From Desulfobacteraceae bacterium (GTDB lineage: Bacteria > Desulfobacterota > Desulfobacteria > Desulfobacterales > UBA11574): a stretch of 35,182 nt of DNA. Positions 25,254-34,593 of the stretch are shown here, piece by piece; within the stretch, counting starts at the first letter, position 1; each line of letters opens with the position of its first letter. Below the pieces are notes generated by a model. That model was given only the letters and a program-made list of their open reading frames with translations, was not told the DNA's origin and made no database searches. A program made the translations under genes and the position numbers. The DNA lies in the NCBI GenBank assembly GCA_030613575.1, contig JAUWLP010000007.1, positions 1 to 35,182 of the forward strand. The letters run 5' to 3'.

Positions 25254-25298
25254 AAGCAAGGGATGTAAATTTAAATCTTTTTGTCGCATGATACCTGT

Positions 25299-25985
25299 AT
25301 GAAAATGACAATACATGAGGTTGCCCGGTGCCTTAATCTTCATGTAAGTACCATAGAACGCTGGATACGCCAGGGAAAAATACCCATACAAAAAACCGGC
25401 AACGGCTATCTATTTGGCGAATCTGCTCTGAAAAAATGGGCTGCAATGTATAGACTGCCGTTTTTAATACCCGAAAAAGTAAAATCTCTGGGGTATGAAG
25501 AGAAACCCGAAAACCTCCTGTCCGCCATGAAGCGTGGCGGTGTGTTGCATGATCTTAAAGGGGATGACGTGGAAACGGCTTTGAAATTTGCCGTTGAAAA
25601 TATGCCTGTTTTATCCAAAACCTCAAAAAAAGAACTTTATCAACTCCTGCTTGAAAGAGAACGCCTCACATCAACCGGCATTGGCAAAGGGGTTGCCATT
25701 CCTCATCCCCGCGACCCGCTGTCGGATGCTTTGAAAAGCCCGGTAATAAGCACATGCTTTCTTGAAAAACCCATAGACTTTGGGGCAGTGGATGACCGGC
25801 CGGTGTTTGTTATGTTTATTCTTTTAAGCCAGTCTATTAAAATTCATCTCCATCTTCTTTCGAGGTTTTCTTTTTGTGTTCGCGACAATTCATTTGTGGA
25901 ATTTTTAAAAACATCCCCTGATGAAGCAGCGTTTTTTGCAAAAATAGCTGATTTCGAAAAACAACTCGATAGAGCAGACACTTAG
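25299..25985 (+). CDS. Excisionase/MerR-type HTH fused to PTS EIIA (Fru/Ntr) domain
   Basis: MTIHEVARCLNLHVSTIERWIRQGKIPIQKTGNGYLF (HTH_17-like) then STGIGKGVAIPHPRD (EIIA active-site His context). Confidence 0.85.
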   Translation: MKMTIHEVARCLNLHVSTIERWIRQGKIPIQKTGNGYLFGESALKKWAAMYRLPFLIPEKVKSLGYEEKPENLLSAMKRGGVLHDLKGDDVETALKFAVENMPVLSKTSKKELYQLLLERERLTSTGIGKGVAIPHPRDPLSDALKSPVISTCFLEKPIDFGAVDDRPVFVMFILLSQSIKIHLHLLSRFSFCVRDNSFVEFLKTSPDEAAFFAKIADFEKQLDRADT

Positions 25986-25996
25986 GTATTGGCAAT

Positions 25997-27727
25997 ATGC
26001 GCATTTTTCAATCATGGCGCTACCCTGCAAACTGGACCATTTTTCGTTTAGACGATCGTCTGCTGCTCATTTTGGTGGCCATTATTGTCGGCAGTTGCAG
26101 CGGTCTGGCATCGGTGGTTCTTAACCGCTTACTAATGGTCATGTTCAATTGGTTTCATGATTTACGCCATTACTGGTGGATTTTTGTGTTGCCGGCTATC
26201 GGCGCTGCGCTCTCTTCCCTGTTTCTGGAAAAAGTTGTTAAAGAAGGGGCCGGGCACGGTGTGCCGGAAGTCATTTACAGTGTATCGCGTTACGGCGGCC
26301 TGCTCAGGTTCCGCTCAAGCTTTTCCAGGCTTATATCCAGCGCTCTTACCATCGGCAGCGGAGGTTCGGCAGGTCCCGAAGCCCCGGTTGTTATCAGTGG
26401 TGCGGCGATCGGGTCCAATATCGCAAAATATTTTTCCTTAAATGACCGCCAGCGAATAACACTTGTCGGTTGTGGAGCGGCCGGCGCAATATCTTCTATC
26501 TTCAATGCACCCATTGCCGGAATGGTATTCGCCATTGAAGTGATCATCGGAGAATGGAAATCCGTAAATATCGTTCCCATTGCCATTGCGTCGGTAGCGG
26601 GTACTGAAATCAGCCGCATCCTTCAGGGAAACCAGATTCCTTTCAGCCACCGCCTGTTCAATATCAGCCATATGGATATTCTTGCCTGCGTTGGATTGGC
26701 TGTATTGACTGCTGCTGCTTCAATTCTGTTAACCCGCCTGCTCAGATTTATGGATAAAATATCAAAGAAATTGCCGGCCCCTTTATGGATACGGGCAGCC
26801 ATAGGCGGTTGCGCGGTTGGCCTGATCGGCCTGTTCCTTCCGGAGGTTCTGGGTAAAGGGTACCATGAGGTTCAAACCATGATCGAAGGTGCTTTTTCAC
26901 AGGGACTTGCAATTGTGGGGCTTGTTACGATCGCAAAGATTGTTGCCACCGCTTTGACCCTGGGTTGGGGGGGGTCCGGCGGAATATTTGCTCCCTGCCT
27001 GGTAATTGGATGTCTTGCAGGATTGACTTATCACCATTGTCTTGCTTTACTATGGCCTTCCGTATCATGGGTAAATGAAGGATGCTTTGCTTTGCTGGGA
27101 ATGGCGGGTCTTATCAGCGGTATGCTACAGGCTCCTCTTACCGGAATCTTTCTTATTGTAGAGATTACCGGAGGATATGAAGTCATTCTGCCGCTTATCA
27201 TCGTATCGGCCATCTCTACGACCCTCTGCCATTACATTGAACCGGCGGCTTATTATATGAAAGAACTCGTAGAGTATGGACATCTTCTAAGACCCGGCAC
27301 CGATGCACGGGTTTTGTCCGATCTTAATGTTTCAGAACTTATAGAAAAGGACTGCATTGCCGTGACACAAAACATGCTGCTGCGCGATTTTATCAGCATC
27401 GTCAAAAAATCTCATCGCAACTATTTTCCGGTGGAAGATGAAGAGACCGGTCATTTTATGGGAATAATTCATTTGGACGATATCCGGCAGTATCTCTTTA
27501 ATCCGGTTATGTATGATACGGTATTTTTAGGCCAGATCATGAACACCCGGGTTGAAGTGGTTGATCCTGACGACGATTTGGCCGATGTTATTCGCAAAAT
27601 GGATGCAAATCGTCTTTTTTCCATGCCGGTTGTTATAAACAACAGGTTCATCGGTTTGATTTCAAAAGGGAATCTTCTGGATCAATATCGCAGAGAGCTT
27701 ATGGTTCAGACGAGCCAGTCGGTATAA
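25997..27727 (+). CDS. ClC-family chloride channel/antiporter with C-terminal CBS pair
   Basis: GSGGSAGPEAPVV, GWGGSGGIFAPCLVIG, C-terminal CBS-like VNPxDDLADVIRKMDANRLFSMPVV-type sequence. Confidence 0.93.
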   Translation: MRIFQSWRYPANWTIFRLDDRLLLILVAIIVGSCSGLASVVLNRLLMVMFNWFHDLRHYWWIFVLPAIGAALSSLFLEKVVKEGAGHGVPEVIYSVSRYGGLLRFRSSFSRLISSALTIGSGGSAGPEAPVVISGAAIGSNIAKYFSLNDRQRITLVGCGAAGAISSIFNAPIAGMVFAIEVIIGEWKSVNIVPIAIASVAGTEISRILQGNQIPFSHRLFNISHMDILACVGLAVLTAAASILLTRLLRFMDKISKKLPAPLWIRAAIGGCAVGLIGLFLPEVLGKGYHEVQTMIEGAFSQGLAIVGLVTIAKIVATALTLGWGGSGGIFAPCLVIGCLAGLTYHHCLALLWPSVSWVNEGCFALLGMAGLISGMLQAPLTGIFLIVEITGGYEVILPLIIVSAISTTLCHYIEPAAYYMKELVEYGHLLRPGTDARVLSDLNVSELIEKDCIAVTQNMLLRDFISIVKKSHRNYFPVEDEETGHFMGIIHLDDIRQYLFNPVMYDTVFLGQIMNTRVEVVDPDDDLADVIRKMDANRLFSMPVVINNRFIGLISKGNLLDQYRRELMVQTSQSV

Positions 27728-28605: not shown

Positions 28606-29256
28606 TCACTCTTTTTGAGCAAGAGAGATATTTTTCAAATAACCGTCAATAATTCTCTGTGGATCTATTTGAAGAGTTTCCGCATATAACTTTAAAAAAT
28701 TTTTTAAATAAAGGTCGGGAGGAAGATTCTCGATCCGATTTTCTTCCATCGATTTGATAACAGAAACACTGATTCTAGTTATAGCATTAATTTCAGATAT
28801 CTCAACCTCGAAAGCCTCTCTCAACTTTCTTAAAGCATCACCTGAAATCGAATCTTTAGAAAGGGTTTCATTCAAAAGCTTTTCTACTTCTTTTTCTCTC
28901 GGTTTTTTTCTAACCCTTTCAGCAAAATTGTCAATGTTTGTCATATTACCCGTATAAAAGGGCACCGGTTTTTTTTGATTTATCATAGATGTAATTGAAA
29001 GGTCAACTTGTCCGGAATCAGTAAGAATAGTGTCGTATGCGGCCCTTTTGTGTTCATCTATCAGCGTTAAAAAAGCCTCTTTTATTGTTTTAAGAATGTT
29101 ATCTCTCTCCTCATTTGAAAACAAAGAATAGGTAACCGGAGAATCGTCATCATAAATTGACAGAGCGTCCCTGTAAGCACGCTTGATCTCAAAAGAGAGC
29201 GAATTTGTTGGAATTTTTAAAATTTCGTAATAATTCAGTCCGTCAAATTTTTTCAT
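28606..29256 (-). CDS. Degenerate DnaJ-like domain fused to RodZ-type HTH_25 domain
   Basis: N-term NYYEILKIPTNSLSFEIKRAYRDALSIYDDD...IKEAFLTLIDEHKRAAYD; C-term LRKLREAFEVEISEINAITRISVSVIKSMEENRIENLPPDLYLKNFLKLYAETLQID. Confidence 0.8.
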   Translation of the reverse strand: MKKFDGLNYYEILKIPTNSLSFEIKRAYRDALSIYDDDSPVTYSLFSNEERDNILKTIKEAFLTLIDEHKRAAYDTILTDSGQVDLSITSMINQKKPVPFYTGNMTNIDNFAERVRKKPREKEVEKLLNETLSKDSISGDALRKLREAFEVEISEINAITRISVSVIKSMEENRIENLPPDLYLKNFLKLYAETLQIDPQRIIDGYLKNISLAQKE

Positions 29257-30173
29257 GAAATTTCCCCTGACAGTGATACCGATGGCCTGTTGTTGATTAT
29301 CTTTTCCGCAATTTTTTCCATATCGATTGCCGGTGGTGTATAAGGGTATCTATGGACAAAGATTTTTTTTGAAAGAACTGAATCATGAATCCGCACATCA
29401 TAACCGACATTTCCAAGAAACTGAAAATTTGAATAAAAATGCCTGTTGCATAAGTCTTCAATTTTATATCCAATGGTTGCATCTAAATTTTTACGAAACT
29501 GATTTAAAATAAACTTGAATTTAAATTCGCTTAATCTGTTTCTCAAAAAACTTTCACTATCGGGATCATATTTTAGCACAATTTCTATGATATCAGGCGA
29601 TTTTATTGCTATATTATTTGGGCTGACAGTAGCTTTCTTTACCGCAGAAATAAAGGAGTGCTGTTTAACGATCTGCTTTAATTTCCTCAAATAGACAACC
29701 TTAATAAAACGAAAGGAATTTTCGATTGCTGTGGGTTCGGGTGTACATATAAAAATCCCCTGCTTGGAGGTTAGGAAAAAATCGAGAGTGTTAAAATTTG
29801 TTCCGGTCCCAAGGTCGAGCAGAATGTAATCAAAAGAAAGTTTTCGTATGGCATTTATTATTTTTAGTTTATGTGCGTGTGTCAGATTCGCAACTTCCAT
29901 GGAGCAAAGCGAAGAACTTATAAAAAATAGATTCTGTATATTTGTGGAAACAGCCGTATTTTCAAGATTATTTACTGTTTTATCTAAAAATCTGTTTATC
30001 CCTCCTTGCTGGTCATTAATCCCCAGCAAGGTGTGAAGGTTTGAACCGCCAAGGTCCAAGTCAATCAGTACGACTTTTTTGCCCCACTTGGCCAGCAGTG
30101 CGCCAAGACTGGCCGTGATAAAGCTTTTTCCGACACCTCCCTTTCCACCGCCGATTGGATATATTTGGCTCAT
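29253..30173 (-). CDS. MinD/ParA-family P-loop ATPase (FlhG-like)
   Basis: PIGGGKGGVGKSFITASLGALLAKWGKKVVLIDLDLGGSNLHTLLG; FDYILLDLGTG; 4-nt overlap with downstream J/HTH_25 gene. Confidence 0.88.
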   Translation of the reverse strand: MSQIYPIGGGKGGVGKSFITASLGALLAKWGKKVVLIDLDLGGSNLHTLLGINDQQGGINRFLDKTVNNLENTAVSTNIQNLFFISSSLCSMEVANLTHAHKLKIINAIRKLSFDYILLDLGTGTNFNTLDFFLTSKQGIFICTPEPTAIENSFRFIKVVYLRKLKQIVKQHSFISAVKKATVSPNNIAIKSPDIIEIVLKYDPDSESFLRNRLSEFKFKFILNQFRKNLDATIGYKIEDLCNRHFYSNFQFLGNVGYDVRIHDSVLSKKIFVHRYPYTPPAIDMEKIAEKIINNRPSVSLSGEIS

Positions 30174-30397: not shown

Positions 30398-31696
30398 CTA
30401 TTTTTTCATATTTTTCGGGTTGCAGGTAAGGTGGTCATATATGAGATTCTTGAGCTTTTGCTGCAGAACCGAGTAAGAATAAAAACGTGTTGCAATTTCG
30501 TAGTTTGTCTCGACCATTTTTTGACGAAGTTCCTGGTTTTCAAGAACATCTCTTGCCTTGCTGACTGCATCCTCTGTAACATACCCGTCTATTTCTACGG
30601 TAAGAAACCCTTTGGGCTCGATGTCAAATGTATAAATTGAATATTTGTTTACAACTATCGGTTTACGAAAGTATACGGCTTCGAGAAAGGCATTTCCAAA
30701 TCCTTCAAAATTGGATGGATACGTTACAAGATCAGCGTGTGGATAGATATCATCAAGAGTGTAAATTTTCTTTCCGGTTTTAGTCAGCCCCCTGCGTTCA
30801 TTAATAATATCTGATACAAAAACAGTATCAACACTCATAAGCTTTGAATATTCCATGATTCTTTGTTCATAATCGTAGCCCTCATCACCGGAAGCATGCG
30901 AAATTATAAGCCTGGCTTTTTTCCCCAGCCTGTGGACTATTTCTATTGCATGTTCGATCCCCTTACGCTTTACAACACGAGTCGGCTGAAGGATAAAAAG
31001 CTCATCATCTGCGATTCCAAGGGATTGCCGCACATCTTTTGCATAATCATCAACCGGAAGCGGTGGGTTTTCAAAGTCCATGACATTTGGAATAATGGTT
31101 GCCGAGATACCTGTTCTAAGGCTTAGCTGGTTGTCGCCGGAAGAATTGATGGTCACGTGTTGTATCGACGGGAGGTGGGGAGGAAATGCCATGTTTAGAT
31201 ATTCCCAAACACTATTTGTCAAAAACTGCTGGCGTTCCCAGAAAAAATCGTGATGGTGGGCTATTGCAGAGATTCCGGTTTCTGATATCACCTCGGTAAC
31301 GGCAAGGCCTAATGGGATATTTAAAGGAATTGTCAGTGCATTTTCCGGAACTAAAAGTTCAATCGCGAATTTTTCGATGAATTTGTATAAATCATCCTTT
31401 AATTTTCTTTTAATTCCCATAATTGTTTGTGTAACATGCCGTTCACGTTTATGGACCCCAAAGCAGTGATTGTAAATATCTTTAATCTCAGGATGTGTAA
31501 AATGAGCTTCTTCTGCCAGATAGGAACAATCCGGCGGACGGTCAAGCTTACCTGCAAAATAGAAGCAGGAAAATCCTTCCCTTTGAAAAACAGTAGCCCA
31601 TTTTGCTGTTTCCAGGGAAACACCATCTGTTCCTGCAAAACGGGTTGAAATAAATCCGACATTGTGCACGGAACCGCAGAATTGACATTTTTCCAT
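30398..31696 (-). CDS. GT4-like glycosyltransferase
   Basis: IPNVMDF...LFILQPTRVVKRKGIEHAIEIVHRLG, ADLVTYPSNFEGFGNAFLEAVYFRKPIVVN. Confidence 0.85.
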   Translation of the reverse strand: MEKCQFCGSVHNVGFISTRFAGTDGVSLETAKWATVFQREGFSCFYFAGKLDRPPDCSYLAEEAHFTHPEIKDIYNHCFGVHKRERHVTQTIMGIKRKLKDDLYKFIEKFAIELLVPENALTIPLNIPLGLAVTEVISETGISAIAHHHDFFWERQQFLTNSVWEYLNMAFPPHLPSIQHVTINSSGDNQLSLRTGISATIIPNVMDFENPPLPVDDYAKDVRQSLGIADDELFILQPTRVVKRKGIEHAIEIVHRLGKKARLIISHASGDEGYDYEQRIMEYSKLMSVDTVFVSDIINERRGLTKTGKKIYTLDDIYPHADLVTYPSNFEGFGNAFLEAVYFRKPIVVNKYSIYTFDIEPKGFLTVEIDGYVTEDAVSKARDVLENQELRQKMVETNYEIATRFYSYSVLQQKLKNLIYDHLTCNPKNMKK

Positions 31697-31746: not shown

Positions 31747-32091
31747 TTAATTCGGTATGCTATCAGTTTTTAGCATTTCTCGGAAATAAATTACGAGGTT
31801 TGAATATTCAATTCACGAGAATTCTGAATACTTTTAATGCATTTTTTAAAAAATGACATCAAGCAAAATTTAAGCCAATTTTTCAGTCCGGATTTTCTTT
31901 TTAATCATGGTTATTTATTCTATGATTTTGCTATATATTGTGCCATTTTTTTCTTGACGTACAATATATATTATACTATGAAGTAAATCAACGCAATACG
32001 TTAAATTTTTTAAAAACTAACGTTAAAAATCATTTTTAGATTGCAAAATATCGAACAAAAAATTAAAGGTGCTAAAAATAAAGAATATACC

Positions 32092-32475
32092 ATGATAAAC
32101 ACGGAAAAGATAGTTGAGCGAAGGGAACATAAACGGTTCCCGGTTCGGGAGGGGGTATATGCTTTGATCAAGGATAATTCCTCCAAACTGGGTCAAATCA
32201 AAAATGTCAGCAGGGGAGGGCTTGCCTTCAGTTATATCGTTAATGAAGAGCAAATGCACGAATCGTTTAAGGTTGATATATTTATAAGCGGTCAAGGCTT
32301 TTGTTTAAAAAATATACCTTCTAAAAAGATATCGGATTTCCATATAGATAATAAATTCCCCTTCAGCACTTTTGCAGTAAGGCAAGTTGGTATTCAATTT
32401 AATGAACTGAATCACAGCCAGTTATCCCGGTTGGATAATTTCATCCGGGATCACACCACCGGTGAACAAAATTAA
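32092..32475 (+). CDS. PilZ domain protein
   Basis: ERREHKRFPVREGVYALI...IKNVSRGGLAFSYI; start MINTEKIVERREHKRF preferred over TTG at 32041. Confidence 0.8.
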   Translation: MINTEKIVERREHKRFPVREGVYALIKDNSSKLGQIKNVSRGGLAFSYIVNEEQMHESFKVDIFISGQGFCLKNIPSKKISDFHIDNKFPFSTFAVRQVGIQFNELNHSQLSRLDNFIRDHTTGEQN

Positions 32476-32706: not shown

Positions 32707-34593
32707 ATGAGGGGCCAGATGGCCATATCAATTTATTGGGCAGATAATTATGTTGAAAAGAAGCGCTCCGGGGAAAAAGCGATAAACCTGATAAAACCGG
32801 GACAAAGGGTTTTTATCGGTTCTTCCTGCGGTGAACCCCAGCATCTTGTAAAGGAACTTGCCGCAGCATCGCAAAGATTTACGGATATCGAGATTGTTCG
32901 TCTCCTCAGCCTTGAAAGTACCCCCTTGACGCTGATAGCAAATAAAACAAAAGACCAAAGCTTTAATATCAGGTCTTTTTACTTAGGATCCGCCAAGCCA
33001 AAAAGCCTCGCAAAAAACAAGCGCTTTATTACACCCATGAACCTTTCGGAAATACCCCGTCTTTTTGAAACCAGACGCCTCCCCATAAATGTAGCTCTTG
33101 TTCAGGTGTCTCCGCCGGATGACTTCGGCTGGATGAGTCTGGGCATTTCGGTGGATATAACTATGAGTGCGGCCATGTCAGCCGACCTTGTCATTGCCCA
33201 AGTAAATTCCAGCATGCCCCGTGTACTGGGCAGAAGCTTTATACATGTAAACGATGTTGATGTGATTGTTGAACACGAAGAGGAGCTTCTTACCGTTGGT
33301 GAACTTCCTGAATTAGAGTCGGCCAATCTTATCGGCAGGCTTATTGCCCGGCTTATTGACGATGGTTCAACCATCCAGATCAGTCCGGGTACAACCCCAC
33401 AGGCCATCCTTTTGGCATTTTCCGATAAAAATGATCTCGGGGTTCACACCCAATATCTTACCACCGATATCATGCGCCTTGTTTCAATGGGGGTGATTAC
33501 AAACCGGGAAAAAGGATTTAACGAAGGCAAAATCGTTGCAAGCAGTGCTATCGGCAACAAAAATCTTTATGAATATCTTGATGATAATCCGGCCATTGAG
33601 TTTCATCCTTCAGATTATGTAAATGATCCCGGTATTATTTCCCGTCACAATAAAATGGTCTGTATGAACGTGCCCATGGCCATGGATCTTACCGGTCAGG
33701 TAGCCGCAGATGCACTTTCCTACAACCATTTTTCCGGCGTAACCGGTATGCTCGATTTTATCAGAGGAGCGTCCCGATCTGAAGGGGGAAAATCTATACT
33801 CATGTTTACCTCAACAACCATGGATGCTAAAAAAAGCAGGATTGTCCCCATGTTAAGTGATACCGCAATCGTGGTTCCAAGGGGTGATGTTCAATATGTA
33901 GTTACCGAATATGGTGCGGTAAACCTGTTCGGAAAAAGCCTCCAGGAACGGGCCATGGCCATGATCAGCATTGCCCATCCTGATTTTCGTGATGAGCTCT
34001 TGTTTGAGGCCAAAAAAATGGAACTGCTCGGCGCCGAACGGACCCTGTCGGAATCGGCTTATGGCATATATCCGATCAAACTGGAAGAGACACGGGAGAT
34101 TAGTGGTGATTTGATCACCATAAGGCCGGCAAAACCGGTGGATGAGAGAAGAATCCAGGAACACTTTTACAATCAGGATAAAGGTGACATATATTCCAGA
34201 TTTTTTCAGGCCAGGGCCCGGTTTATTCGCGATGATATGGAGAGAATGTTCCAGATCGACTATATTAAAAATTTAACACTTCTCGCTGTTGTCGGAGAAT
34301 TTGGTTTTGGAAAGGTCGTAGCTGTTGGGGAATATCTGCTGGACCCGGCCAAGAACATAGCGGAGATTGCCTTTTCTGTGAGTAGAGATTGGCAGGGAAA
34401 AGGATTGGGAAAGATCTTGATGCTAAAACTGTGTGCAGCTGCCCGTGAAAATGATATTTCAGGTCTTACTGCTTACACGATGCCAGGAAACAAGGGCATG
34501 ATAAAGCTTTTTAAAAGCCTGCCCTATAACGTCAGTACGGTTTATGATGGCGAAGTGGTTGAATTGACCTGCATGTTTAATGAAGTTAAATGA
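32707..34593 (+). CDS. Acetyl-CoA hydrolase/transferase family protein fused to a C-terminal GNAT acetyltransferase domain
   Basis: GQRVFIGSSCGEPQHLVKEL, VTEYGAVNLFGKSLQERAMAMISIAHPDFRDEL; C-term IAEIAFSVSRDWQGKGLGKILMLKLCAAARENDISGLTAYTMPGNKGMIKLFKSLPY. Alternative start ATG at 32719. Confidence 0.88.
   Translation: MRGQMAISIYWADNYVEKKRSGEKAINLIKPGQRVFIGSSCGEPQHLVKELAAASQRFTDIEIVRLLSLESTPLTLIANKTKDQSFNIRSFYLGSAKPKSLAKNKRFITPMNLSEIPRLFETRRLPINVALVQVSPPDDFGWMSLGISVDITMSAAMSADLVIAQVNSSMPRVLGRSFIHVNDVDVIVEHEEELLTVGELPELESANLIGRLIARLIDDGSTIQISPGTTPQAILLAFSDKNDLGVHTQYLTTDIMRLVSMGVITNREKGFNEGKIVASSAIGNKNLYEYLDDNPAIEFHPSDYVNDPGIISRHNKMVCMNVPMAMDLTGQVAADALSYNHFSGVTGMLDFIRGASRSEGGKSILMFTSTTMDAKKSRIVPMLSDTAIVVPRGDVQYVVTEYGAVNLFGKSLQERAMAMISIAHPDFRDELLFEAKKMELLGAERTLSESAYGIYPIKLEETREISGDLITIRPAKPVDERRIQEHFYNQDKGDIYSRFFQARARFIRDDMERMFQIDYIKNLTLLAVVGEFGFGKVVAVGEYLLDPAKNIAEIAFSVSRDWQGKGLGKILMLKLCAAARENDISGLTAYTMPGNKGMIKLFKSLPYNVSTVYDGEVVELTCMFNEVK

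Follow-up and report, generated by a model that had tools for sequence, protein, structure and literature searches.

Probable reuse of an HPD-less J-like domain as the docking part of a MinD/FlhG-like ATPase system in Desulfobacterota

The locus described here has the two-gene layout, ATPase plus partner, that is found in ParAB, McdAB, PomXYZ and similar systems, and we know of no ParA/MinD positioning partner with a J-type domain. ParA/MinD ATPases have an extremely wide range of partners, and as a result many of the ATPases have been given the name of orphans (PMC10241942). MinC and MinE share a site on helix 7 of E. coli MinD (S148, D154, I159), and D152 of this MinD is in contact with the signature lysine (PMC6803595). 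SflA is a J-domain protein that has been linked to FlhF/FlhG and thus to an ATPase of the MinD type, but it is a membrane protein with a TPR/SLR domain, restricted to Vibrio (PMC7226244). The open-licence literature searched held no description of a MinD and J-HTH_25 pair, nor of the fusion of a J-like domain to a BY-kinase reported below.

The pair lies on the minus strand of the window, by which we mean the whole stretch of 35,182 nucleotides analysed, from a Desulfobacterales MAG (82% complete). Its features are the following.

29253 to 30173, minus strand: gene of a MinD/FlhG-like P-loop ATPase, 306 aa (Pfam ParA, CbiA and AAA_31)
28606 to 29256, minus strand: gene of the J-like plus HTH_25 partner, 216 aa (Pfam DnaJ and HTH_25)
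29253 to 29256, minus strand: ATGA overlap of the ATPase stop and the partner start, 4 nt
29119 to 29148, minus strand: conserved segment DDSPVTYSLF, partner residues 37-46, standing in for the HPD loop of the J-like domain (homologue alignment)
28690 to 28710, minus strand: YLKNFLK within HTH_25, partner residues 183-189, containing the aromatic pair Y183/F187 (alignment with RodZ and CT009)
29718 to 29741, minus strand: PEPTAIEN, residues 145-152 of the ATPase, where the counterpart of MinD helix 7 starts; contains the J-specific E146 and E151

Coordinates, strands and the 4-nt overlap, as given for the two genes in a first-pass annotation of this DNA, proved exact, and a spacing of -4 was found in 18 paired loci, as the genes were called. 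The same annotation had placed a glycosyltransferase and a PilZ protein just upstream. This needs small corrections: the glycosyltransferase (30398-31696) is on the same strand as the ATPase gene and 224 nt upstream of it, and the PilZ gene (32041-32475) lies beyond the glycosyltransferase on the opposite strand. One relative (L036) has an extra gene between ATPase and glycosyltransferase. The glycosyltransferase resembles mannosylglucosylglycerate synthase, with 241.8 bits, below the 640-bit cut-off. The PilZ protein has intact RxxxR and NxSxxG motifs, and its synteny extends to close relatives only. No flagellar gene neighbours the pair, as had been remarked earlier. Elsewhere in the window, an acetyl-CoA hydrolase/CoA-transferase is fused to a GNAT acetyltransferase domain (32707-34593, 628 aa), and a MerR-type HTH to PTS EIIA (25281-27727), the latter adjoining a CLC chloride channel with CBS domains. 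Rfam and tRNA scans gave no matches, and promoter and terminator matches were no better than those of shuffled sequences.

As far as its motifs tell, the first protein retains the residue set of ParA/MinD ATPases that dimerise: the deviant Walker A motif GGGKGGVGKS, a DLDLG-NLHT switch region and the Walker B aspartate D120, with K11, K16, D38, D40 and D120 at 98-100% among 64 J-paired homologues. Its best fold matches are FleN/FlhG structures (E 2e-11), FleQ-FleN complexes among them, and it shares with these proteins the fold, the deviant Walker A and the DxDLG and PEPTS segments. It differs from them by its J-HTH_25 partner, by the lack of flagellar neighbours and by its N-terminus, which starts MSQIYPIGGGKGG and where DQAxxLR was not found. 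At the C-terminus no conserved FlhG-like KFFW/F tail motif was detected, and amphipathicity scores did not distinguish the groups. Its clade is marked by NLHT behind DxDLG, a place taken by N-x-D in MinD and FlhG, and is separate from the FlhG and MinD references (100/99, in a tree with long branches). Compared to MinD of the MinCDE system, the ATPase core is similar and the numbering matches that of the E. coli protein around residues 146-152, but the NCBIfam MinD model scored 75.5 bits vs a cut-off of 212.9, with no equivalog assigned, there are no MinC or MinE neighbours, and position 152 is N instead of D. Six residues (G139, E146, E151, Q225, R227 and G235) are conserved in J-paired ATPases and not in the PilZ-paired or other ATPases; a single origin of the J partnership was not rejected (AU p 0.31). 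The earlier label of FlhG/MinD-like ATPase is thus upheld for the fold and abandoned for FlhG or MinD identity, given the separate clade, the lack of DQAxxLR and the occurrence of the gene in genomes without flagella (see below).

The partner comprises a J-like domain (residues ~1-82), a linker of low confidence (87-108) and an HTH_25 domain (~138-206). Pfam DnaJ is matched over residues 8-75 with 33.6 bits, compared to a cut-off of 27.8 (4.2e-8). The helices and most core residues of DnaJ/Hsp40 are present, including the KRAAYD segment of helix IV, but the domain differs from Hsp40 proteins in three respects, the lack of HPD, a conserved extra loop and a genetic tie to an ATPase other than Hsp70. 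At the HPD position the window protein reads DDD, and the suspicion of a degenerate J domain was confirmed on a larger scale: none of the 65 J domains paired with an ATPase carries HPD, and the canonical motif was not recovered in any orthologue. The only HPD seen belongs to L135, an ordinary J protein without ATPase pairing. In paired domains the third HPD residue (D) is often retained, with S and an additional segment behind it; the resulting replacement motif, (D)S-x3-Y-S-[L/F]-[F/Y]-x2-E, is conserved in both HTH and BY-kinase types. Loss of HPD throughout, together with a conserved replacement, indicates a distinct domain rather than local decay. The predicted model of the partner (pLDDT 74) has the J helices, an extra short helix at the former HPD loop (40-45; confidence is low at residues 39-43), a disordered linker and the HTH. 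Foldseek returned J domains and the RodZ of 2wus with a probability of 1.00 and E values of only ~0.01-0.2; for both assignments the sequence search is the stronger evidence.

The C-terminal domain matches Pfam HTH_25 over residues 142-202 (58.5 bits, cut-off 24.6, 5.7e-16), and the structure that it matches is RodZ from the MreB complex 2wus. Y183 and F187, invariant in 18 orthologues, align with the MreB-contact pair of RodZ and CT009. HTH_25 domains commonly share this aromatic pair, and support for an MreB contact is therefore modest; since MreB is common, its presence in 36/36 pair genomes is uninformative. In RodZ (F60/Y64) and in chlamydial CT009 (Y66/F70) the pair is required for MreB binding (PMC4047632). 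Unlike RodZ, the window partner has a J-like N-terminus and neither a transmembrane nor a periplasmic part: no transmembrane segment was found in 80 J-HTH ORFs from partly redundant loci, the highest 19-aa mean hydropathy being 1.48, and the J-HTH protein is predicted to be soluble.

Whole J-HTH relatives share 41-80% identity over nearly their full length. We searched the phylum with the J-HTH alignment, blind to the ATPase, counting full-length hits with flanks, and the ATPase was directly upstream in 27/27. When ATPase-led searches were added, 65 of 65 J proteins were paired with the ATPase (adjacency for L042 and L057 comes from the J-HTH phylum search, for L125 from the phylum and ATPase-led searches, the gene caller having missed the ATPases of these three in the combined set). 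At least 18 family-level groups of the phylum have J-HTH pairs, which are retained while their surroundings differ between families, flanking genes being conserved among close kin only. The co-occurrence, for which a search was suggested at first pass, is therefore strong and conserved, and it bears out the idea of an ATPase and adaptor unit. One genome (G248) holds two pairs whose ATPases fall in different clades, and in each pair the J type agrees with the ATPase clade. In the blind search, L062 and L066 were recognised by the HTH part alone and had no adjoining ATPase; they are possibly decayed pairs. Plasmids and viral contigs gave no full-length relatives, and a plasmid or phage origin was rejected on this basis. 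Depending on lineage, the neighbours are comF, comEC, an AmmeMemoRadiSam enzyme, SpoIID, RecN or sensor kinases; they vary and point to no common function, and the attempt to deduce a cargo from them was given up. As a separate observation, two families have comF beside the pair and another has comEC there (L075, L077, L080, L082). PilT was found in 35/36 pair genomes and 11/16 genomes without the pair, a small sample confounded by phylogeny in which a link to type IV pili is suggestive only.

Sister systems were found in two other families, f98 and f126, where the gene after a related ATPase encodes a fusion of the same J-like domain with a BY-kinase, a protein ~330-390 aa long that ends in a tyrosine run (loci recorded at L119:3721-5775, L121:4706-6729, L123:3770-5829 and L127:3445-5462). 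Three fusions were scanned, and matched TIGR01007 above cut-off and TIGR03018, the XrtA-associated tyrosine autokinase, with E ~1e-40; the window protein bears HTH_25 in place of this kinase. These pairs lie in XrtA-like exopolysaccharide clusters, among genes of the XrtA/PEP-CTERM type for a chain-length determinant, for an export and for an outer-membrane protein, together with a sugar-phosphate transferase or an RfaH-like regulator. Present in both HTH and BY-kinase proteins, the J-like domain is the constant part and the C-terminal module the variable one. On sequence grounds, ATPase and J domain are inherited together, with HTH_25 or BY-kinase behind the J domain according to group. Related ATPases without a J partner adjoin PilZ proteins, the common alternative partner in the phylum, and 9/15 of these PilZ neighbours have both c-di-GMP motifs by a simple pattern. 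In the host genome itself, another ATPase belonging to this family adjoins a protein that combines PilZ with cyclic-nucleotide binding (L118:4345-6452, G000 contig C28). Exopolysaccharide export and c-di-GMP control are the functions indicated by the sister systems; such a link, first suggested from the window, is not supported by the neighbours of the pair there but is supported independently by the J-BY-kinase clusters and the PilZ-paired ATPases.

That the two genes stay together across the phylum suggests that the J-like domain has probably been reused for docking. We regard as about evenly balanced the proposal of a two-gene ATPase/adaptor module, in which the J-like domain, released from DnaK work, would dock on the ATP-bound ATPase dimer near the face of MinD helix 7 and would modulate the ATPase cycle, the C-terminal module being, by a weaker argument, the output end. 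By the numbering match, E146 and E151, two of the six J-specific residues, fall at the known partner face of MinD, and we infer that J docking would take place near them. The soluble RodZ-type HTH keeps its aromatic pair and may thereby connect the ATPase with MreB or with sites of envelope assembly. Mirror-tree correlation was dropped as a pointer to the J domain, which it did not single out: distance correlation with the ATPase, confounded by species history, was 0.88 for J and 0.87 for HTH. With values so close, docking may therefore go through the HTH in the J-HTH group. A more general view, which we hold tentatively and with some doubt, is that the J domain changed its target from Hsp70 to an ATPase of the MinD type, becoming a reusable docking module, similar to MinE or MinC, through which either a RodZ-type HTH or a tyrosine kinase is plugged into a single family of ATPases; PilZ proteins would be the alternative partner.

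Solubility of the J-HTH protein, which sets it apart from RodZ, makes DNA binding in a FleN-FleQ-like scheme a real rival. The ATPase would be an anti-activator binding J-HTH, and its state would set the occupancy of promoters by HTH_25. Such a scheme agrees with FleN/FlhG structures, FleQ-FleN complexes included, being the best fold matches, and with FleN acting on FleQ, a regulator, at genes for flagella and exopolysaccharide (PMC10723142). We nevertheless find it rather unlikely, as the HTH_25 is of the RodZ type whose solved relatives hold MreB, J-HTH has no sigma-54 AAA+ or REC domain, and the BY-kinase sister version does without any HTH. It is improbable that the two genes are merely co-transcribed, with the J-like domain serving another, unlinked partner and no contact between the proteins. 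The many kinds of neighbouring genes would fit this, but adjacency is kept in changing surroundings across all those family-level groups, with or without HTH_25.

That the ATPase is a variant of flagellar FlhG and the J-HTH protein its accessory is very improbable, and a flagellar role is largely refuted by clade, motif and FlhA evidence. FlhG/FleN is indeed the nearest known fold, and Vibrio SflA, a DnaJ-domain protein, affects flagellar placement in flhFG mutants (PMC7226244). However, besides the separate clade and the missing DQAxxLR, FlhA is absent in 22/36 pair genomes, including 7/7 of the f73 genomes tested (95-100% complete), and flagellated pair genomes have separate FlhG-type proteins near FlhA. 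Such proteins were seen in eight flagellated genomes, mostly pair carriers, and several of them have DQA-x-x-LR (e.g. L184 and L188). In the host, FlhA was not found in the 82%-complete MAG. No more credible is a chaperone pair, in which the J domain would still bring in DnaK for remodelling, either of the ATPase or of its cargo: the fold is recognised by both sequence and model, and KRAAYD is kept, but a working DnaK co-chaperone was rejected on the general absence of HPD and the presence of another conserved motif in its place.

Coming back to the adaptor module, a family of ATPases with HPD-less J adaptors and exchangeable outputs describes the finding better than the polarity system envisaged at first. 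A domain of chaperone type has probably found a new use, as the docking part of a cell-organising or regulatory ATPase system. If true, a J fold that docks on Hsp70 would have switched to a different ATPase, and throughout the phylum there would be a link between ParA/MinD-type switching, the export of envelope polysaccharides and c-di-GMP signalling. A recognisable partner domain, occurring in fusions with HTH and tyrosine kinase, would make ATPase systems of this kind findable by sequence.
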